DNA from: Bdellovibrionales bacterium
GTDB taxonomy: Bacteria; Bdellovibrionota; Bdellovibrionia; Bdellovibrionales; UBA1609
Reading direction: 5' to 3'
NCBI GenBank assembly: GCA_019695175.1
Contig: JAIBAM010000026.1
Coordinates: forward strand, 1 to 39,390
Length of the DNA stretch: 39,390 bases
Positions 6,962-18,673 of the stretch are shown here, piece after piece. Both the position numbers and the translations under genes were made by a program. The stretch's first letter is position 1. Every line of letters starts with the position of its first letter. The notes under the pieces are model-generated. The model was not told the DNA's origin, ran no database searches, and was given only the letters and a program-made list of their open reading frames with translations.

Positions 6962-7888
6962 TTACCCAAACTGTTTCCAACGTTTATGTAACCACATCCA
7001 CTGTTCAGGATGTTTGCGCACATAACTTTCCAACTTGTCATTATAAATTTGGGTCATGTGTCTTACAGTGGATCGCTCCCCAAAAGAGATGTCTTTCATA
7101 TTTACAGCGTCATTAACCCTCGGATTTGCATTTTCCTCGGAAGAAATCTCATAGGGTATTTCATCTTGTAAATAAAGATTATTTATTCCATTCTGGTCAC
7201 GAAAAGTGTAACCTGGGATCACGCTGGCACCAGATCTTTCTGCTATCACTGCCAGTCCAAATCCTGTTCCGGTCTTTCTCCCAAAAAATTCAGTTTCAAC
7301 TCCGATGGGTGGTCCTGTATATTGATCTAAAACAAAAACAACGATTTCATTTCGTTTCAATGCCTTTAAAATTGCATAGGAACTATTTCTTGGAGGAATC
7401 AATTTAATCCCAATTTTTTCTCTCATGGCAAACCATTTTTGATTCAACCATTGGGTCTTGAACACTTTAGAAACTAAATTTATTTTGTATCCTTTCAAAG
7501 CCAACCCGGCTATGGCCAGATCACCATTACCTAAATGAAGAGTGAGAAGCAAAGCTCCCTTTCCCTTTGCTAAAGCATGATCAAAATATTTTAAATCATG
7601 AAAAGCAAATTTTCTTTGCAAAGTAGTTTGAGACAACTGGGACCATTCACAGTATTCTACCAAATTACACCCAAACTCCTTCATGGCTCTGCGACCCATA
7701 GAAACTCTTTCTTTATAACTCAACTGAGGATATGCAATAGCTAAATTGCTGAGAATCACTTGACGACGAATTCTGAGCACATCAAACCAAATCACTCCTA
7801 AAACAGCACCCAATCTTTTTTGAAAAGACCACGGAGTTTTTACTAAAATAGATGCGAACAAACTAAGCGGAGCAAAGATCCAACGCAA
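6962..7888 (-). CDS. lpxL: LpxL/HtrB-type lipid A acyltransferase
   Basis: The product has 308 residues and belongs to the Lpx late acyltransferase family, which adds a secondary acyl chain to lipid A precursors at the inner membrane. Seen: a hydrophobic N-terminus, the early block RRQVILSNLAIAYPQLSYKE (about 41-60) typical of the family, and the catalytic HxxxxD motif as HLGNGD at about residues 117-122 (many homologues have HLGNWE). Downstream are a conserved DQYTGPPIGVETEFFGR block (about 190-206) and the C-terminal WMWLHKRWK (about 297-305). The start is TTG, preceded by AAAGGAG with 7-base spacing and overlapping the end of lpxK by 26 bases, so translation is coupled. It is the last gene of the operon. 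Which acyl position it serves cannot be told from sequence. Confidence 0.85.
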   Translation of the reverse strand: MRWIFAPLSLFASILVKTPWSFQKRLGAVLGVIWFDVLRIRRQVILSNLAIAYPQLSYKERVSMGRRAMKEFGCNLVEYCEWSQLSQTTLQRKFAFHDLKYFDHALAKGKGALLLTLHLGNGDLAIAGLALKGYKINLVSKVFKTQWLNQKWFAMREKIGIKLIPPRNSSYAILKALKRNEIVVFVLDQYTGPPIGVETEFFGRKTGTGFGLAVIAERSGASVIPGYTFRDQNGINNLYLQDEIPYEISSEENANPRVNDAVNMKDISFGERSTVRHMTQIYNDKLESYVRKHPEQWMWLHKRWKQFG

Positions 7889-8903
7889 CTTGTAGCTCCT
7901 TTAGACCTTGATTAAAATGAAGCTCAACCGGAACGGTCCACCCATAATTGAGCAATGGATGTTTTATTTTCTGAAGCTTTACTAAATCTTTTTCCGTAGT
8001 GATCCAAGGCTGTTCCCCAATTTGCAAATAGATCTCATCCAGATTTTTTTTGGAATATCTCTGATGGTCTTTAAAGATAAAGGACTTGCCAAGGGAGACC
8101 CCAAAACTTTGTTGTAAAGACATAAGAAAAGAATTTGGATTACCAATGCCACAGATCACATGAAGTTTTTTTTCCGAAAAAGAGCCGGTACCTATTACAG
8201 GATAAGGTAAACCTAAATGGTACTTGGCCTCAGCCCAACTTTTATGCCCTTGTTTATGCAAGAGTTCTCGCCAACACTGAACCCAAGTGGGATTAGATAA
8301 ATTTATTTTATTTATAATACAAAAATCAGCTCTTTTCACCCCTGACCAAAATTCCCTACCCATCCCCCAAGGAAAAGGATGCCTCACCTGCGGGTCTTGC
8401 GAACCATCAATTACCACAATATCCAAATGACGTTTCAATCGTCGATGCTGAAAAGCATCATCAGCAATAATGCAGGAAATATTTTTTTCTAAAGCTAATA
8501 AGCACTGAGCCACAGTCACTCGGTCCTTTCCCACATAAATGGGCACCTCAGGTAGTTTAAGGGCCATAAGCGTGGGTTCATCGCCAAAAACTTGAGCCGG
8601 TAAAGGATTCTCTAAATTAACTTTTTTAATCTCCTTCTCATCCACATGGTTGGCGTTTGAGCTTCTGCCATAACCACGACTGATAATCCCGGGTAAACGC
8701 CCCTTTTCCATTAAATAATTAGCAATCCATAAAACCAATGGAGTTTTTCCCGTTCCACCCATTGTCATATTGCCCACACTTATAATGGGCTTAGGGAGAG
8801 AAATACTCTGCAGTATTTTTTGATTGTAAAGACCGTTCCGGGTTTGCATGATTTGACCATAAACTCCACCCAACGGCGCCAAAAGTGATTTAAAATTCAC
8901 CAC
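7863..8903 (-). CDS. lpxK: tetraacyldisaccharide 4'-kinase
   Basis: The product has 346 residues. LpxK phosphorylates the 4' position of the lipid A disaccharide at the inner face of the inner membrane, using ATP. The N-terminus is hydrophobic; the P-loop reads GNMTMGGTGKTP at about residues 43-54, and the family's DDAFQHRRL block (about 147-155) follows, as in other LpxK proteins. The start is one of two adjacent GTG codons (8903 or 8900). The second overlaps the lpxB stop as GTGA, the common coupled arrangement. It is interesting that Bdellovibrio lipid A has been reported with mannose in place of the phosphates; this gene nevertheless looks intact. It lies between lpxB and the acyltransferase. 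Confidence 0.93.
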   Translation of the reverse strand: MVNFKSLLAPLGGVYGQIMQTRNGLYNQKILQSISLPKPIISVGNMTMGGTGKTPLVLWIANYLMEKGRLPGIISRGYGRSSNANHVDEKEIKKVNLENPLPAQVFGDEPTLMALKLPEVPIYVGKDRVTVAQCLLALEKNISCIIADDAFQHRRLKRHLDIVVIDGSQDPQVRHPFPWGMGREFWSGVKRADFCIINKINLSNPTWVQCWRELLHKQGHKSWAEAKYHLGLPYPVIGTGSFSEKKLHVICGIGNPNSFLMSLQQSFGVSLGKSFIFKDHQRYSKKNLDEIYLQIGEQPWITTEKDLVKLQKIKHPLLNYGWTVPVELHFNQGLKELQVALDLCSA

Positions 8904-10057
8904 ATCGATTCCACTACGTTTGCGACCTTTACTGTGGCTCCACTCTGACCCAATTTGTTTTTAACTTGGGCCAGCTGTTTTACAATTTGTTCTCGAGTTT
9001 CCTTTTGGTCGATTATTTTTTGTAATTCAAAGACAAGTTTTTCAACCCCGGCTTGTTCTTGGAAAAGTTCCGGTACAACCCTATGGCCCAAAACCAAATT
9101 CACTAATCCAAAATGCGCCGTAGATTTGACAAATTTTTTAGCCAGCCATGCCGTAAACCCGTTCATGCGGTACATAATGACCATGGGTTTTTCCATCAGT
9201 CCGACCATTAAGGTCGCGGTACCCGACGCACAAAGAACAATATCGGCCATGCTAATCATGGAAAATGGTTCATCCTGAATTAAGGTCAAAGGAATATCCA
9301 ATGGGCTTAAGTGATTCAGAACATCTTCCTTTTGCATTGTTGGCGCAATTAACAAAATCACTTTAAGATCCGGGTGTTTTTGTATTAAGAGTTTAGCAGT
9401 ATCAATTTGCAATTGTAGATGATGTTTCAATTCTGAGTGACGACTTCCTGGCATCAAAGCTAAAACTAAATCTTCTTTTTTTAAACCATATCTTTCTCGA
9501 CGAATCCCGATGGCATCCCTAGAAAAAAGATCCCCTTTTAGTTCATCTAAAAGGGGATGACCCACAAACTCCACCGGCACTTGAAACTTATTATAAAAGT
9601 CCGCTTCAAAAGGAAAGAGGACTAGCATTTTATCCACAACTTTTTTTATGAGGTGAACACGTGACTGTCGCCAAGCCCAAACCTGAGGTGAAATATAATA
9701 AATCACTTTTATATCTAATTGTTTCAGTCTTTTGGCCAAGCGAAGATTAAAGTCTGGATAATCTAATAACAAAGCCACTTTGGGTCGACGCTTTTGTGCT
9801 TCTTGAATTATAAGATTGAAAGCCTGTTTGATTTGACCCCAATGGGCTAACACCTCTTGCAAGCCAACAACAGCTAAGTCCTCAGAACGACCCAGAGCCT
9901 CAAAACCCAAATGGATCATCGCCTGACTGCCTATGCCAAATGATTTATATTTAATTTGATTGGCATTCCAATATTCAAGCAATCTTTGGGCGTAAAGACT
10001 GGATGAGGCCTCCGCAGCGACAATTAAAATTTCAGGACAATCGTTTGTGGATATCAT
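8897..10057 (-). CDS. lpxB: lipid-A-disaccharide synthase
   Basis: The product has 386 residues. LpxB joins lipid X and a UDP-diacyl sugar to form the beta-1,6 disaccharide of lipid A, acting at the inner membrane as a GT-B glycosyltransferase. Conserved blocks seen: LLDYPDFNLRLAKRL (about 97-111), YYISPQVWAWR (about 120-130), MPGSRHSEL (about 202-210) and the SGTATL nucleotide-binding loop (about 278-283). The usual N-terminal AGEASGD loop reads AAEASSS, keeping the Glu but losing the last Gly-Asp. The start is ATG at 10057; a TTG directly upstream (10060) is less likely. It overlaps the end of the oxidoreductase gene by 26 bases, so the two are coupled. Confidence 0.93.
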   Translation of the reverse strand: MISTNDCPEILIVAAEASSSLYAQRLLEYWNANQIKYKSFGIGSQAMIHLGFEALGRSEDLAVVGLQEVLAHWGQIKQAFNLIIQEAQKRRPKVALLLDYPDFNLRLAKRLKQLDIKVIYYISPQVWAWRQSRVHLIKKVVDKMLVLFPFEADFYNKFQVPVEFVGHPLLDELKGDLFSRDAIGIRRERYGLKKEDLVLALMPGSRHSELKHHLQLQIDTAKLLIQKHPDLKVILLIAPTMQKEDVLNHLSPLDIPLTLIQDEPFSMISMADIVLCASGTATLMVGLMEKPMVIMYRMNGFTAWLAKKFVKSTAHFGLVNLVLGHRVVPELFQEQAGVEKLVFELQKIIDQKETREQIVKQLAQVKNKLGQSGATVKVANVVESMW

Positions 10058-10994
10058 CAAGGATTCGCTCTGCTAATTTTAGTGCCACCAGCCCATCATA
10101 ACCTGATACAATAACTGGAGCTTGTTGTTTGACCGATGCAACAAAAGCCTTTGTTTCAGCCAAAAGCGCATCCCCCTTTTGTAAATTCCAAGCTTCAGCC
10201 TGAAGTGGAATCTCCCCTTCCTGCCATTCCCCTGTTTTAGTCAATAGATTGACCTCTCCTGAAGTAAAATCAATGGACAGATACTGATCCGGCTGAAAAA
10301 CACGGAACTTGCGCTGAGTGTTTTGAGAAACCCTTGAAGCCGTAATATTAGCCACAGTTCCAGAAGCAAATTCAACTCTGGCATTAGCTAAATCAACTTT
10401 TTTGGTGATTACAGGACTTCCCACTGCTGAAACCTGAATTGGTTCACTCTTCACCAAAGACAAAATCACATCCAAATCATGGATCATCACATCGAGCACC
10501 ACATCCACATCTAGACTGCGAGGTTTAAAGGGTGCCAACCGATGACATTCAATAAATAAGGGTCGATTAAGACGTTCTCGCACCGATGTCAGTGCCGGAT
10601 TAAATCTCTCCACATGGCCAACTTGTAATATCAAATGATTTTTTTTTGCCAATTTACAAAGTATTTCTGCCTGAGCTGAAGTGGATGTGATGGGCTTTTC
10701 CATATGAACATGAATTCTATTTTCTAGAAAAATTTTTCCCAATTCAAAATGCGCTGGTGTATTCGCCGCAATAGTCACTGCATCCACTTTACCAATCAGT
10801 GCTTGAGGACTTTCATAGAATTTCGTTTGAAACTCTTGGGCCACTTGCTGGCCCTGATCCACTCGCGAATCACTGACCCCCACTAAATCAACTTCATCAT
10901 CTAATAACTTGTACTTTTGCACATGAAACTTACCCAAGTGCCCCACACCAATAACAGCCACACGCAATTTATTTTGTGGGTAAAGAACACTCAC
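10032..10994 (-). CDS. gnnA: Gfo/Idh/MocA-family oxidoreductase, GnnA-like (probable UDP-GlcNAc 3-dehydrogenase)
   Basis: The product has 320 residues with a Rossmann fold at the N-terminus: VIGVGHLGKFH, with GxGxxG at residues 16-21. The family EKP motif (99-101) and the catalytic-type HDLD block at about 172-175 follow. The C-terminal half is the alpha/beta substrate domain. Its place between lpxA and lpxB matches Acidithiobacillus ferrooxidans, where GnnA oxidises the 3-hydroxyl of UDP-GlcNAc and GnnB transaminates it, giving amide-linked 3-acyl chains. No transaminase gene is in the window. The function is thus inferred from family, position and the known 2,3-diamino-glucose lipid A of Bdellovibrio; other sugar dehydrogenases of this family are possible. 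It overlaps lpxA by 4 bases and lpxB by 26. Confidence 0.8.
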   Translation of the reverse strand: MSVLYPQNKLRVAVIGVGHLGKFHVQKYKLLDDEVDLVGVSDSRVDQGQQVAQEFQTKFYESPQALIGKVDAVTIAANTPAHFELGKIFLENRIHVHMEKPITSTSAQAEILCKLAKKNHLILQVGHVERFNPALTSVRERLNRPLFIECHRLAPFKPRSLDVDVVLDVMIHDLDVILSLVKSEPIQVSAVGSPVITKKVDLANARVEFASGTVANITASRVSQNTQRKFRVFQPDQYLSIDFTSGEVNLLTKTGEWQEGEIPLQAEAWNLQKGDALLAETKAFVASVKQQAPVIVSGYDGLVALKLAERILDDIHKRLS

Positions 10995-11773
10995 CGCGCT
11001 ATTCCTCGGGCTGAGTTTTTCACAAAATGCACCAAATGATTAATATTTTCACTAGGCAAACATTCTTGTTCTATGAGTTGTAAGGCCTCAGCTACAGTTC
11101 TCTGACCCATAATGAGGAATCTTAGGGCTCGATGGATATTTTCAATTTCCTCTTTTCCAAACCCAGCTCGATCTAAACCAATTTTATTAGTTGCCCTTGA
11201 AACCGCATAACTTCCTTGGGCCATGGAGAATGGTAAAATATCTTTGTTAATGGCACTTTCACCAGCAATATAACTGTACTTACCTATGGTCACAAACTGA
11301 CTAAAGGAACAGACGCCACCAATTCGTACTTGATCTTCGACGGTGACATGTCCTGCAAAATTAGAAGTGTTTGCAATGACCACATGATTTCCAATATGGC
11401 AGTCATGGGCAATATGTACATAAGCCATCAATAAGTTATTGTGACCAATGGTCGTTGCTCCTCCACCTTTTACTGTACCGTTGTTAATAGTAACAAACTC
11501 ACGAATAATATTGTTATTTCCAATGGAAAGAAGTGTGGGCTCATTTTTATAGGATAAATCTTGAGGCGGTCCTCCGATCATGGCCCCTGGAAAAATTTGA
11601 TTGTTACTACCAATTTCTAACTCTCCATGTTCGTGTCCCAAAACGACATGGGAAGCAATGGTGGTCCCTGACCCAATTTTGACTTTTCCACTGATAATGG
11701 AAAAGGGTCCTACTTTTACATTATCAGCAAGCTCCGCCCGATCTGAAATAATGGCTGTTGGATGAATTTGCAT
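10991..11773 (-). CDS. lpxA: acyl-ACP:UDP-N-acetylglucosamine (or diamino sugar) acyltransferase
   Basis: The product has 260 residues, the usual LpxA length. It transfers a 3-hydroxyacyl chain from ACP to position 3 of the UDP sugar, the first step of lipid A synthesis, in the cytosol. The first two-thirds are hexapeptide repeats of a left-handed beta helix, starting with MQIHPTAIISDRAELADNV. Catalytic His is H123 in the block VHIAHDCHIGNH (119-130), and GGPPQDLSYKNEPT (67-80) is conserved. The C-terminus is helical. The start ATG overlaps the stop of fabZ by 1 base (TAATG), so translation is coupled. With a gnnA-like gene next door, the natural acceptor may be the 3-amino sugar. This is an inference that sequence alone cannot settle. 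Confidence 0.95.
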   Translation of the reverse strand: MQIHPTAIISDRAELADNVKVGPFSIISGKVKIGSGTTIASHVVLGHEHGELEIGSNNQIFPGAMIGGPPQDLSYKNEPTLLSIGNNNIIREFVTINNGTVKGGGATTIGHNNLLMAYVHIAHDCHIGNHVVIANTSNFAGHVTVEDQVRIGGVCSFSQFVTIGKYSYIAGESAINKDILPFSMAQGSYAVSRATNKIGLDRAGFGKEEIENIHRALRFLIMGQRTVAEALQLIEQECLPSENINHLVHFVKNSARGIAR

Positions 11774-12234
11774 TATTTCGTCCTAAAAGTAATTGTGGCT
11801 AGAACTTCAGCTTCAGCGACCAAATGTTCATCAACATGAGCTGTACACTGGAGTAACAACATTTGTCCACGATCCCTAATAATTTCCGCGGTTAACTTTA
11901 AACTATCTCCTGGCACCACGGGCTTTCTAAAACGCGCATTTCTAACCGAGGCAATAACCACATCCATATCTGGATCATCTTTACGATGAAAGGCCATACA
12001 ACCTGCTTGGGCCATAGCTTCCAATAAAATAACTCCTGGCATAATGGGTCGATCAGGGAAATGACCTACAAAAAAATGTTCATTCATAGTTACATTTTTT
12101 AAAGCCACAGCTTTTCGACCTAATCTTGAGCCAGTTTGAGGTCCCTCATGCACCGCTAAAATACGATCAATGTATATAAATGGATAGCGATGGGGCAGCA
12201 CTTTCATAATTTCTGTGATAGTCATTGTTTCCAT
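11773..12234 (-). CDS. fabZ: 3-hydroxyacyl-ACP dehydratase
   Basis: The product has 153 residues, the normal length. FabZ dehydrates 3-hydroxyacyl-ACP in fatty acid elongation and competes with LpxA for the same substrate, which explains why the two are adjacent. Hot-dog fold hallmarks are HRYPF (residues 15-19) and the catalytic block GHFPDRPIMPGVILLEAMAQ (57-76), with His58 and Glu72 as the active-site pair. The ATG has AAGGA 7 bases upstream. The gap to skp upstream is 143 bases and contains no gene, so lpxD, present at this place in many proteobacteria, is missing here. Confidence 0.95.
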   Translation of the reverse strand: METMTITEIMKVLPHRYPFIYIDRILAVHEGPQTGSRLGRKAVALKNVTMNEHFFVGHFPDRPIMPGVILLEAMAQAGCMAFHRKDDPDMDVVIASVRNARFRKPVVPGDSLKLTAEIIRDRGQMLLLQCTAHVDEHLVAEAEVLATITFRTK

Positions 12235-12377: not shown

Positions 12378-12947
12378 TTATTTCTTCTTAGGGCTACTTT
12401 TGGTTTGGTTTTTTTCGAACTCTGAAATAACACGAGCCGTTAAATCAATTTCCTTTTTTGCCCACAATACACTCTGCTCTGATTTTTCCAGAATAACACT
12501 GTAATTCTCTTTCTCAGCAAGTTCTCCAATAACTTTACGCAAACCTTCAATAATAGGTGTTGTTAAATCATTTTGCTTCTTTTGAATTTCACCTTGGCTT
12601 TTAGATACCAGTTCACGGTACTTTAGCATCTCTTGTTGCATTTCTTGTTGCTTATGAGCTTTGGCTTCATCTGTTAATGCTAAAGCTTTTTTCTCGTAAT
12701 CATCATTCATTTTTTTCAAATCAGCTTCTCGTTTTTCCAATTCCTTTTTTTTCCTACCAAATTCCTCTTCCAACTCTTTTTTTGCTTTTTTTCCCAAACT
12801 AGTTTCTTGAATAGCTTTTTGCATATCAATATAACCAATTTTTGTTTCGGACTTTACTTCAGAACCACCCGCTGTGTTGGCGTGAACTTCTTGTGGTTGA
12901 AAGATAAAAAATGAGGATAAAAAAATGGTTGCGGTAAATAATTTCAC
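12378..12947 (-). CDS. skp: periplasmic chaperone Skp/OmpH
   Basis: The product has 189 residues. Skp is a trimeric chaperone that shields unfolded outer-membrane proteins in the periplasm on the way to BamA. A signal peptide ends near VHA at residue 24. The short N-terminal strand IGYIDMQKAIQET (about 38-50) is typical of the family and is followed by a long Lys/Glu-rich helical pair (about 55-135), the jellyfish-like arms. A closing region with YSVILEKSEQSVLW (about 152-165) completes the trimerisation domain. The start is GTG with AAGGAG 6 bases before it. It lies 42 bases after bamA, as in E. coli. The C-terminal tail is Lys/Ser-rich. Confidence 0.92.
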   Translation of the reverse strand: MKLFTATIFLSSFFIFQPQEVHANTAGGSEVKSETKIGYIDMQKAIQETSLGKKAKKELEEEFGRKKKELEKREADLKKMNDDYEKKALALTDEAKAHKQQEMQQEMLKYRELVSKSQGEIQKKQNDLTTPIIEGLRKVIGELAEKENYSVILEKSEQSVLWAKKEIDLTARVISEFEKNQTKSSPKKK

Positions 12948-12989: not shown

Positions 12990-15479
12990 CTAAAAATTAG
13001 GTCCAATGGCAAACTGAAAGTTCACCCCAGTTTCCTTATACTCTGGCCTTGGGTTGATGGGAAAACCCCACTCAAACCGTAAAGGACCAATGGGTGAAAA
13101 CCAACGAAATCCAAAACCCACATCACTGCGCAAATTATCCAATGTTAAATAATCATTGGCATCACCTATATCATAAAACACAACCCCTTTGATATCCGCT
13201 TCTTTTAAGAGCGGAAACTGAAACTCAAGATTATAATAAATTTCCTGAGTCCCCCCAAAGGGTCGATAGGCTGAAGCTAAAGGATCCGGGTCGCTCACTG
13301 CAGCATTCAAGGCTTTTTGGGATAGCTTTCGTCTTCCCACCGTAAACCAATCAAACCCTCTTAAAGAATTGGCCCCTCCAAGTAGAAACAATTCATTAAA
13401 TGGAGGTTGTTGGCCTGAATCGTTAGAAGTTATAAAGCCATAGGTCAAGTTGTTACGCCAAATAATTTCCAAAAAGGTCTTTTTAAAAAATCGAACTGTT
13501 GCAAAACCTTTGGTGTATTTTTTTTCCCCTCCCAATCCCGCATATTCCATCACCAAACTACTATAAAGACCTTTAGAAGGGGTCAACCGATCATCTCTCT
13601 TGTCATATTCCAGAGTAAAGGTCAGAGAGCTGGTCCAACCGTTAGCTGTTTCTACTGGGAATAAATCTGGATCCCCATTATCTGTCAGACTCAAATCGGT
13701 GTGATCCAGTTTGTAGCGAATAATACCATCCAAATAAGGAGCTAGAGGGTGACCTATACGAATAGCTCCCCCGCTTTTAATTTCAGAAAAATCAAATAGC
13801 GTCCGTCGACTTTGGTAGACATCGAATCCAGCAGACCATTCCGTATCTCTAAAATAGGGCTCGGTAAACGACAGCTTGAAATAAGATTGTGACTTACTCA
13901 AATCAATGGAAGCCCCTAACTTTTGACCACGTCCCATTAAATTAATCTGATTTATTTGCCCATTTAAGATAAAACCTTGAAAACTAGAATAACCGGCCCC
14001 CAGTTGAATCGTCCCCGTGTTTCTCTCCTTCACAGAAATATCAATATCCATGACGTCATTGCGACCTTTAGGAGTTTTATTTATAAAATTAACTTCTTCA
14101 AAATACCCCAATCTTTTTACATTATCAAAAGACTCTCTTTTTCGAGTCTCATTGTAAAGTTCACCTTCACGAATCCGGAGCTCCCTACGAATCACTTTAT
14201 CCCTTGTCTTGCTATTACCAATCACATTAAATTTACCAAAATAAACTTTGTTTCCTTTATCAATCTCAAAGGTAATATCCACTTCTTTATCTTGTTCGCG
14301 AATGGGAGTTCGGGGAATTATGTTGGCATAAGCGTAACCCAAATCTCCATACTTCGCTTGCAACTCTCGCAAATCTGACTGCAAAGTCTCGTACCGAAAA
14401 GTTCCCGCTTTGTGAATTTGAATGGAATCAAATAGCTCCTGATTGGAAAAGAGCAAGTCCCCAGCAAAATCCACATGCCCGACACGAAACTGCTCCCCTT
14501 CCTCAATTTTTATAGTAATGTAAATCCCGGTTTTATCTGGGGTGACATAAACCTGAGGGCGCTCTATTTTTACCTGTATGTATCCTTCGTTGAAGTAGAG
14601 TAAATTGAGCAAATGCATGTCTCGATCAAAAGCTTCTTGCTTGTAGGAACCTGAGTTGGCAATAAAACTAAAAAAACCCCCTTCTTGAGTCATCATTCCT
14701 GATTTCAACTTTGAACTTGAGATTTTTTTGTTACCTAAAAATGAAACTCTTTTAACTCGAACTTTTTCATTCTCATTGACATCAAACACCAAAATCACTT
14801 GATCTGGATTTTCTGTAGGCAAAACTTTGTAATTTACCTTTGCAAGAAAATAACCTTTTTCTTCATACATTTTTTCTAACTTGGCTACTGTTTCACCCAC
14901 TTTGGTAAGGTCTAGCATTTCATAGGATTTGTAACCCGAGGCTTCTTTTAATTCATCATCAGTGAGTTCTTCATTGCCATTGTAGCGAATTTCAATCACC
15001 GATGGCTTTTCAACAACAACATAGGTTAGAGTATTTTTACCGTTTATAACGTCCCAATCGACCTTTACATCATAAAAATAACCAAGTTTGAACAGCTCTA
15101 AAACATCTTGGCGAATGACTTCATCGGAAATTGTTTCCCCTTCCCGACTGATCAATTTGGACTTCATCGCCTCCATTTCAATTTTATGCTGGCCTTTAAA
15201 TTGAATCACCTCAATTTTTCCGGTCAACTCAGTAGAATTCCTCCCGTTAGGTAAGTTTTTATATGATTTTTTTTCTTCCACTGATTTTATGACAGCAGGG
15301 GTTTTTGCTAGAATTGGTTTTTTATTTTTATTTCCAACTTTATTATTTTTTTGACCCAATGTTTTAGGAAGGCCCATAGGCTGTTTTTCCACTGAAAAAC
15401 TGGAAGAAGAAAATATAAAAAAAACTAAGATGGCTTGCCCTACGAATTGGCTAAAAAAAAAATATCGAAATTTTTCCAT
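12990..15479 (-). CDS. bamA: outer membrane protein assembly factor BamA
   Basis: The product has 829 residues. BamA is the core of the complex that folds and inserts beta-barrel proteins into the outer membrane. A signal sequence (about 1-30) is followed by a Lys/Asn-rich linker of some 55 residues not usual in E. coli BamA. Five POTRA domains follow (about 85-435) with recognisable starts such as IEVIQFKGQHKIEM and VGHVDFAGDLLFSNQELF. The C-terminal 16-strand barrel carries the conserved RGFDWFTVGRR loop (the RGF/Y motif of lid loop L6) and ends in Phe, as the barrel signal requires. The start is ATG at 15479; a GTG directly upstream (15482) is possible. The ribosome binding site is weak. 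The gene follows lolD after 104 bases. Confidence 0.95.
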   Translation of the reverse strand: MEKFRYFFFSQFVGQAILVFFIFSSSSFSVEKQPMGLPKTLGQKNNKVGNKNKKPILAKTPAVIKSVEEKKSYKNLPNGRNSTELTGKIEVIQFKGQHKIEMEAMKSKLISREGETISDEVIRQDVLELFKLGYFYDVKVDWDVINGKNTLTYVVVEKPSVIEIRYNGNEELTDDELKEASGYKSYEMLDLTKVGETVAKLEKMYEEKGYFLAKVNYKVLPTENPDQVILVFDVNENEKVRVKRVSFLGNKKISSSKLKSGMMTQEGGFFSFIANSGSYKQEAFDRDMHLLNLLYFNEGYIQVKIERPQVYVTPDKTGIYITIKIEEGEQFRVGHVDFAGDLLFSNQELFDSIQIHKAGTFRYETLQSDLRELQAKYGDLGYAYANIIPRTPIREQDKEVDITFEIDKGNKVYFGKFNVIGNSKTRDKVIRRELRIREGELYNETRKRESFDNVKRLGYFEEVNFINKTPKGRNDVMDIDISVKERNTGTIQLGAGYSSFQGFILNGQINQINLMGRGQKLGASIDLSKSQSYFKLSFTEPYFRDTEWSAGFDVYQSRRTLFDFSEIKSGGAIRIGHPLAPYLDGIIRYKLDHTDLSLTDNGDPDLFPVETANGWTSSLTFTLEYDKRDDRLTPSKGLYSSLVMEYAGLGGEKKYTKGFATVRFFKKTFLEIIWRNNLTYGFITSNDSGQQPPFNELFLLGGANSLRGFDWFTVGRRKLSQKALNAAVSDPDPLASAYRPFGGTQEIYYNLEFQFPLLKEADIKGVVFYDIGDANDYLTLDNLRSDVGFGFRWFSPIGPLRFEWGFPINPRPEYKETGVNFQFAIGPNF

Positions 15480-15583
15480 CACATAAGCCTACCAATTGAG
15501 GGCGTTTTATTGAAATGCAAATCTTATAAAAATTTTAAAAAGACTAACGGTAAACCCTGTTGATGTCAAAAGTAGCGCGATTA

Positions 15584-17544: not shown

Positions 17545-18673
17545 TTAGTGCTTTCTTTCACTGGCTTGCTTCTTTAAAAAGGCTTGAATAAACTCCTGCA
17601 GATCTCCATCTAAAATCTGCAAAGGGGCAGAAGACTCAAAATTCGTTCGATGATCCTTCACTAATTGATAAGGGTGCAGTACGTAGGAGCGAATTTGACT
17701 CCCCCATTCATTAGCCATTTTTCCTGCCGACAATTCATCAATTTTCTTTTGTCGCTTTTCCAATTCCAATTCATAGAGTTGGGCTTTAAGCATTTTCATC
17801 GCTTTACTTTTGTTATCAAATTGACTGCGTTCATTTTGGCATTGAACAACAATTCCCGAAGGTGCGTGAGTAATACGGATTGCAGAATCTGTTTTATTCA
17901 CATGCTGCCCGCCAGAACCGCTGGCACGATAGGTGTCAATGCGCAAATCTTCATCTTTGATTTCCACTTCCACATCATCATTGATTTCTGGATAGGAGAA
18001 AACGGAAGCAAAACTTGTGTGTCGCCTAGCGTTAGAATCATAAGGACTCACGCGAACCAAACGATGCACCCCGTTTTCTACCTTAAGATATCCATATGCA
18101 AATGGTCCATGGATTAATAAAGTAGCGGATTTAATACCTGCTTCTTCCCCTTCTGAAATGGACATAATTTCCACTTTATAACCTTGCTTTTCCGCATATC
18201 GAGTGTACATGCGCAACAAAAGATGGGCCCAATCACAGGCTTCAGTTCCTCCGGCACCAGCATTAATACTCAAATAGGATGAATTCCCGTCCAGTTCTCC
18301 ACTGAGTAAATTCTTAAGCTCCAAATCATGGCAGATTTTTTCCAGCTGTTTAAGCTCTTCCCTTACTTCACTGAAGGTTGGCTCATCTTCAGCCTCCACG
18401 GCCATCTCCAGAAGCAGGGCTGCATCTGCAGTTTTTTGGGTTAGAAGACGCCAATCACCCACGGATTTTTCCAACAAGGCCTTTTCCCGATTCATTTTTT
18501 GCATTTCTTGATGATTAGACCAGACCTCAGGATTTTGAGCCTTTGCCTCTAACTCATCAAGGCGTTTTTGTTTTTGATCAATGTCAAAGATACCTCCGAA
18601 GTTCAGAGGATTTTGTCTGCAACAACTCGATTAATGATTTCACTTCAGAAAGATCTGTTTGTATTGACGCCAT
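17545..18673 (-). CDS. prfB: peptide chain release factor 2 with programmed +1 frameshift
   Basis: RF2 ends translation at UGA and UAA. The gene is read in two frames. A first frame begins at an ATG at 18671-18673 and runs 29 codons to CTT TGA (TGA at 18584-18586). Reading then moves forward by one base at CTTTGAC, continuing with GAC at 18583-18585 to the stop at 17545, giving 375 residues in total. The slip site has the internal Shine-Dalgarno word CGGAGG three bases before CTT, matching the well-known autoregulatory site: low RF2 slows reading of UGA and favours the shift. The RF2 markers SPY (in VRVSPYDSNARRHTS) and the catalytic GGQ (SGSGGQHVNKTDSA) are present. Calling only the long frame (start 18504) would lose the N-terminus. 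Confidence 0.95.
18583..18600 (-). promoter_or_regulatory. prfB frameshift site (autoregulation)
   Basis: Read on the minus strand the site is CGGAGGTATCTTTGAC: an internal Shine-Dalgarno-like GGAGG, a three-base spacer, the slippery CTT and an in-frame UGA followed by C. This order and spacing is the established RF2 recoding element. The poor UGAC context slows termination and leaves time for the +1 shift. Confidence 0.93.

Follow-up and report, generated by a model that had tools for sequence, protein, structure and literature searches.

Lipid A built on 2,3-diamino-glucose carries amide-linked acyl chains, which resist deacylation, and has lower endotoxicity. The original pathway, in which GnnA and GnnB serve LpxA in Acidithiobacillus ferrooxidans, was reportedly described by Sweet et al. 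in 2004, and we take gnnA to lie between lpxA and lpxB in that organism. Another pathway, that of WbpB and WbpE, makes UDP-GlcNAc3NA for O-antigen. The two-step GnnA/GnnB chemistry is set out in PMC8036547, and PMC5644692 reports that gnnA and gnnB are unlinked in Mesorhizobium loti. Here we describe an oxidoreductase gene of the Gfo/Idh family situated between lpxA and lpxB in a 39,390-nucleotide stretch of a Bdellovibrionales genome (contig JAIBAM010000026.1 of assembly GCA_019695175.1; this whole stretch is called the window). The assembly (G000) comprises 2.6 Mb in 56 contigs and is listed as 97% complete. Our analysis suggests, with a probability of about 0.72, that the gene encodes GnnA, which would act together with an unlinked DegT-family aminotransferase of WbpE lineage and with LpxA to give lipid A whose backbone is 2,3-diamino-glucose, wholly or in part. 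Judged from its genes, the organism is likely to make diamino-glucose lipid A.

The oxidoreductase is encoded on the minus strand at 10032-10994 by an open reading frame of 320 residues with a GTG start. A first-pass annotation of the window had described such a protein between lpxA and lpxB, with GxGxxG, EKP and HDLD motifs and overlaps of 4 and 26 bases, and the reading frames, motifs and Pfam match bear this description out; the span given with it, 10032-11773, also holds lpxA and is wider than the oxidoreductase alone. The GTG start overlaps the lpxA stop by 4 bases (GTGA), and the end of the gene overlaps lpxB by 26 bases if lpxB starts at ATG 10057, or by 29 bases if it starts at TTG 10060, the choice of the mechanical open-reading-frame caller. 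The motifs read VIGVGHLGKFH (the GxGxxG motif for nicotinamide adenine dinucleotide, NAD), MEKP and MIHDLD; EKP, GH and MIHD are invariant across the oxidoreductase and the compared sequences in a seven-row alignment, and Pfam GFO_IDH_MocA scores 95.7 bits. The best match in the PDB is 7bvj (232.9 bits, E 4e-68, over 299 residues), the second-ranking chain reaching 82.1 bits. We take 7bvj, entitled 'Oxidoreductase, NAD-binding', to be A. ferrooxidans GnnA, and this match, together with the position between lpxA and lpxB, agrees with the earlier assignment of the protein to the family of A. ferrooxidans GnnA. In a thinned tree of 85 rows the oxidoreductase falls among lpx-linked rows, although the deep forks are weak and one wbp-type row is included. 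Sequence and position support a GnnA orthologue, with a predicted NAD-dependent oxidation of UDP-N-acetylglucosamine (UDP-GlcNAc) at C3, and the protein is the sole Gfo/Idh match in its assembly. None of the NCBIfam equivalog cut-offs is reached, the best model, NF040723, giving 178.5 bits against a cut-off of 450, as would be expected if the gene were an operon passenger acting on an unrelated substrate. We consider this very improbable, since NF040723 itself describes an archaeal UDP-GlcNAc 3-dehydrogenase, the match to 7bvj is to a presumed GnnA, and the lipid A gene neighbourhood is conserved in many named bacteria.

Conservation within the phylum is extensive, with gnnA matches at E<=1e-20 in 126 of 191 genomes. 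The order lpxA-gnnA-lpxB is found at 29 of the 30 best phylum loci fetched, the window's own included, and at the thirtieth (L049) the contig ends before lpxA. The 13 matches that rank next in the phylum (L033-L045, 56-65% identity) all lie between lpxA and lpxB, and the oxidoreductase is therefore not a chance open reading frame; at one of them, L041, the gnnA reading frame crosses a TAG. Eighteen of 20 further phylum loci show the same order. One phylum genome carries lpxA-gnnB-gnnA-lpxB together (L271), and L274, a 27% match, is a wbp-type cluster outside any lipid A operon. Eight relatives were read without gnnA between the two genes (seven had no gnnA match in the phylum search, and the other, G030, stood outside that sample): lpxB directly follows lpxA in seven of the eight, and a run of N separates the genes in G031 (L242).

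A wider scan of named bacteria listed 80 loci, A. ferrooxidans not among them, from which all counts are lower bounds. Among these listed loci a DegT gene lies within 600 bases of gnnA in at least 31, lpxB lies within 2.8 kb downstream of gnnA in at least 51, and gnnA immediately precedes lpxB and lacks an adjacent DegT in at least 29, one of which (L169) is a Bdellovibrionaceae metagenome-assembled genome. At least 54 of the listed loci have 3 kb or more on both sides (others being limited by contig ends), and at least 24 of these have a linked DegT. Locus neighbours were called by tblastn, as calling based on open reading frames overlooked genes in GC-rich loci. With DegT-less gnnA-lpxB in at least 29 of the 80 listed loci, the arrangement in the window is therefore common. 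In the window, the lipid A operon holds a GnnA that is ordinary and well conserved, and whose predicted chemistry is of a known kind.

The genome search for a GnnB-like DegT aminotransferase that the first-pass annotation had proposed yielded a single full-length DegT, outside the window on contig C15 (C15:111968-113074; PF01041, 394.7 bits), while two further DegT matches in the assembly are partial (31 and 22 bits). Absence of GnnB from the genome was accordingly rejected, and because this full-length DegT exists on another contig, the earlier suggestion that the oxidoreductase might prove an unrelated dehydrogenase in a genome lacking GnnB fails. Next to the C15 DegT lies a gene resembling heptosyltransferases, which scores under its NCBIfam cut-off. 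Its closest PDB match is WbpE (404 bits), and in an 82-row DegT tree it falls in a group of 25 Bdellovibrionota rows (support 93/98) inside a larger group with WbpE (100/100), in a tree that contains long branches and in which the larger group is drawn open. It is therefore placed outside the clade of most gnnA-linked GnnBs, though its function may be that of a GnnB.

WbpE acts on a uronic acid, and hence requires a UDP-sugar 6-dehydrogenase in the genome. A PF03721 profile search of the window assembly, listed as 97% complete, found no such enzyme: the sole match reached 30.7 bits over 107 of 187 positions, against a Pfam cut-off of 27, in a 314-residue protein that we take to be malate-dehydrogenase-like. 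Nor does the assembly hold a second Gfo/Idh as a WbpB candidate, and neither a hexapeptide gene nor a second Gfo/Idh lies around the C15 DegT. The sole Gfo/Idh and the sole full-length DegT are therefore each other's only evident partners within the assembly. Among 32 DegT loci compared, which include four in the WbpE group (L086, L088, L089, L091) and L111 outside both groups, kdsA lies near the DegT gene in 15, all of family f8, and manC in 13 (six of family f1 and seven of f8), so that one or both are present at 21; two kdsA rows and one manC row were checked against NCBIfam, and all three were confirmed. Because no UDP-sugar 6-dehydrogenase was found and the relatives' genes stand beside manC or kdsA, we infer that the C15 DegT is most likely a WbpE-lineage enzyme working as GnnB. 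GnnA with NAD+ would oxidise UDP-GlcNAc at C3 to a 3-keto sugar, which the C15 DegT would transaminate to UDP-GlcNAc3N; LpxA would then put a 3-hydroxyacyl chain onto the nitrogen of this sugar, and LpxC, LpxD, LpxB and LpxK would complete a lipid A in which the chains are amide-linked and some or all of the backbone is 2,3-diamino-glucose, the LpxD presumably being encoded outside the assembly.

The distribution of DegT genes is consistent with such a pairing. Ignoring relatedness, a DegT matching the C15 DegT at E<=1e-60 occurs in 83 of 126 phylum genomes with gnnA and in 14 of 65 without it (p 8e-9). Within the window's family, likewise ignoring relatedness, a C15-type DegT is present in 10 of 11 genomes with gnnA and one of seven without (p 0.0025), that one being G031, the genome with the run of N between lpxA and lpxB. 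In a PF01041 search, some DegT was found in 30 of the 31 gnnA-carrying genomes examined, versus one of five lacking gnnA. Also in favour, one gnnA-linked DegT, L197, falls in the WbpE group of the 82-row tree, and L271 unites gnnB and gnnA between lpxA and lpxB.

Several observations weigh against the C15 DegT as the partner of GnnA, or against the proposed product. At the same E<=1e-60 threshold, 43 of the 126 gnnA-carrying genomes lack a match to the C15 DegT; 28 of these are of family f17 and carry other DegTs, all 47 gnnA-carrying f17 genomes having at least one DegT and only 19 having one at this threshold. G009, listed as 100% complete, has lpxA-gnnA-lpxB and no DegT family match at E<=1e-15, and G166, which also has gnnA, holds a single DegT that is of another type in the 82-row tree, grouping with rows that we take to be WecE-like. 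Of the 30 gnnA-linked DegTs in that tree, 29 (among them those of Geobacter, Methylococcus and Thioalkalivibrio) make up a group apart from the C15 DegT. At 22 positions separating WbpE from linked GnnBs, the C15 DegT agrees with WbpE at 14, one of them His308, with the GnnBs at five and with neither at three. The C15 DegT itself has no manC or kdsA adjoining it, and no active-site position separates the LpxAs of 31 genomes with gnnA from those of eight without.

Some of these points, namely the WbpE lineage of the C15 DegT in tree and residues and the gnnA without DegT in G009, would also fit a reading in which GnnA acts as proposed but an aminotransferase not yet recognised serves lipid A, and the WbpE-like gene serves a different lipopolysaccharide sugar. 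A second conserved DegT, present in nine of 10 Bdellovibrionaceae without the window-type DegT and in one of eight with it, points the same way. We regard this reading as unlikely, as the assembly has no other full-length DegT, second Gfo/Idh or UDP-sugar 6-dehydrogenase match, though it is incomplete, with no metG over the cut-off.

The window LpxA keeps Q73, D74, H122, H125, H144, Q161, N198 and R204 (E. coli numbering), and has N at H99 and S at H160, as do most LpxAs in the phylum, whether gnnA is present or absent; we take all ten to be catalytic or active-site residues. Position 160 varies in the phylum (N, S and others). The position of the non-catalytic E. coli P81 is strongly skewed, with Lys in seven of eight LpxAs from genomes without gnnA versus two of 31 from genomes with it, and a search of this comparison for an LpxA signature of the amino sugar found none. 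It is the operon that would point to a preference of LpxA for UDP-GlcNAc3N. The likeness of active-site residues in relatives with and without gnnA is compatible with UDP-GlcNAc3N being made for core or O-antigen while LpxA acylates UDP-GlcNAc, or with a hybrid backbone containing one diamino sugar, and hybrid backbones are known from Campylobacter jejuni according to PMC7956469. Either arrangement appears quite unlikely here, because gnnA overlaps both lpxA and lpxB, and 29 of the 30 best loci and 18 of the 20 others read in the phylum share the gene order.

Completion of the diamino-glucose lipid A that we favour would require LpxD. In the window assembly the LpxD model TIGR01853 matched only LpxA and weak hexapeptide proteins, and neither this assembly nor that of the same-genus genome G001 has an LpxD match over the cut-off. 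At seven of nine relatives' loci read, lpxD adjoins an infA-like and/or metG-like gene, both named from sequence. In G000 and G001 nothing matches metG over the cut-off (a control found metG in 14 of 14 genomes), and infA is likewise unmatched, the latter being weaker evidence since the control found infA in only 10 of 14. True loss of LpxD was rejected; because metG and infA are unmatched too, the lpxD stretch is most likely missing from both assemblies and not lost from the genomes.

A comparison with Bdellovibrio bacteriovorus HD100, which we take to be G119, suggests that the transaminase may differ between lineages. HD100 has lpxA-gnnA-lpxB-lpxK like the window (L061), with a GnnA 45% identical, whereas it has no DegT at E<=1e-60 to the C15 DegT and three DegTs of other types. 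In G052, G130 and G193, gnnB and kdsA both lie between manC and an LPG_synthase_TM gene; in HD100, unlike these, both are missing and the flanking genes are 206 bases apart (L334:12789-12996). Reading 400 kb of G119 turned up no kdsA, the rest of the genome not having been searched for it. The lipid A of HD100 reportedly contains diamino-glucose (a finding ascribed to Schwudke, 2003). The literature confirms a mannose-bearing neutral lipid A in B. bacteriovorus, and a search that excluded most subscription papers found no mention of Bdellovibrio in the literature on GnnA and GnnB.

The HD100-type DegT (L131, G119 C1 at about 2,147,170-2,148,290) is the second conserved DegT referred to above: its distribution among 18 gnnA-carrying Bdellovibrionaceae, nine of 10 versus one of eight, gives p 0.003 with relatedness ignored and with G205 placed among the eight by 59% identity, not by tree. 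It is 85-99% identical within Bdellovibrionaceae. Of 20 f17 DegT rows fetched, chosen mostly for similar scores, 12 proved to be HD100-type, eight at 71-79% identity and four at 55-56%, whereas GnnA identity is only 31-32% in the two f17 genomes compared; this similarity across families may reflect either horizontal transfer or strong constraint. Neither manC nor kdsA lies near any of the three HD100-type loci compared. Because this DegT coexists with other DegTs in several f17 genomes (such as G085 and G162) and its identity of 71-79% does not fit the 31-32% of GnnA, we keep it as a lead only for a phylum-wide GnnB. A tentative picture is that GnnA forms the fixed half of the pathway in Bdellovibrionota and that the transaminase may have been exchanged repeatedly, as a WbpE-lineage enzyme, as the linked GnnB of L271 and as a third DegT in the HD100 lineage.

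The genes around gnnA, all on the minus strand, run in the order bamA, OmpH-like, fabZ, lpxA, oxidoreductase, lpxB, lpxK and lpxL-like acyltransferase. bamA (12990..15482) scores 617 bits with TIGR03303, over the cut-off, and the open reading frame at 12378..12947, by its position between bamA and fabZ, presumably encodes an OmpH/Skp-like periplasmic chaperone. Cut-offs are likewise exceeded by fabZ (11773..12234; PRK00006 161 bits, TIGR01750 159.7 bits), by lpxA, encoding the acyl-ACP--UDP-GlcNAc(3N) acyltransferase (10991..11773; PRK05289 329 bits, TIGR01852 308 bits), by lpxB, encoding lipid-A-disaccharide synthase (8897..10057; TIGR00215 286.5 bits), and by lpxK, encoding tetraacyldisaccharide 4'-kinase (7863..8903; TIGR00682 192 bits). 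The putative UDP-GlcNAc 3-dehydrogenase gene gnnA, named from the 7bvj match, Pfam GFO_IDH_MocA and synteny, lies among these, and the lpxL/htrB-like late acyltransferase gene (6962..7888) has 152 bits with Pfam Lip_A_acyltrans and is below the cut-offs of the NCBIfam models listed. Elsewhere in the window, at 18583-18673 on the minus strand, the opening 29-codon frame of prfB stops at the TGA in CTTTGAC, with a GGAGG stretch upstream, which we take to be the usual programmed +1 frameshift of release factor 2.

Set beside the described systems, the window genome resembles WbpB/WbpE pathways in having a 3-dehydrogenase and a 3-aminotransferase, and differs from them, and from the L274 cluster, in that its assembly yielded no UDP-sugar 6-dehydrogenase, and the surroundings of the DegT no hexapeptide gene or second Gfo/Idh. 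The Legionella loci L225, L229 and L239 are like the window in that gnnA immediately precedes lpxB and no DegT could be recognised in the flank, and unlike it in that no lpxA was recognised there; they come from species other than the chemically studied L. pneumophila, whose lipid A contains GlcN3N according to PMC7956469. M. loti shares the separation of gnnA from gnnB, but there gnnA is also away from the lpxA/B/D cluster. The first-pass annotation was right to find gnnB outside the window operon; its view that this departs from the known pairing does not stand, because unlinked gnnA and gnnB are already published and DegT-less gnnA-lpxB is common. The chemistry of GnnA and GnnB and the unlinked genes are already known, and the gene order is common to relatives; of most interest are the lineage of the partner enzyme and its apparent exchange in HD100. 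If the proposed pathway is true, the chemistry reported for B. bacteriovorus would extend to much of a phylum that shares this operon, and the HD100 DegT would be a definite candidate transaminase. A hunt for gnnB next to gnnA, or one guided by similarity to the classical enzyme, will overlook partners. A close parallel is A. ferrooxidans GnnA/GnnB-LpxA, with a Gfo/Idh gene presumably between lpxA and lpxB and a DegT transaminase in the genome as here, whereas in the window genome the candidate gnnB lies outside the operon and groups with WbpE.

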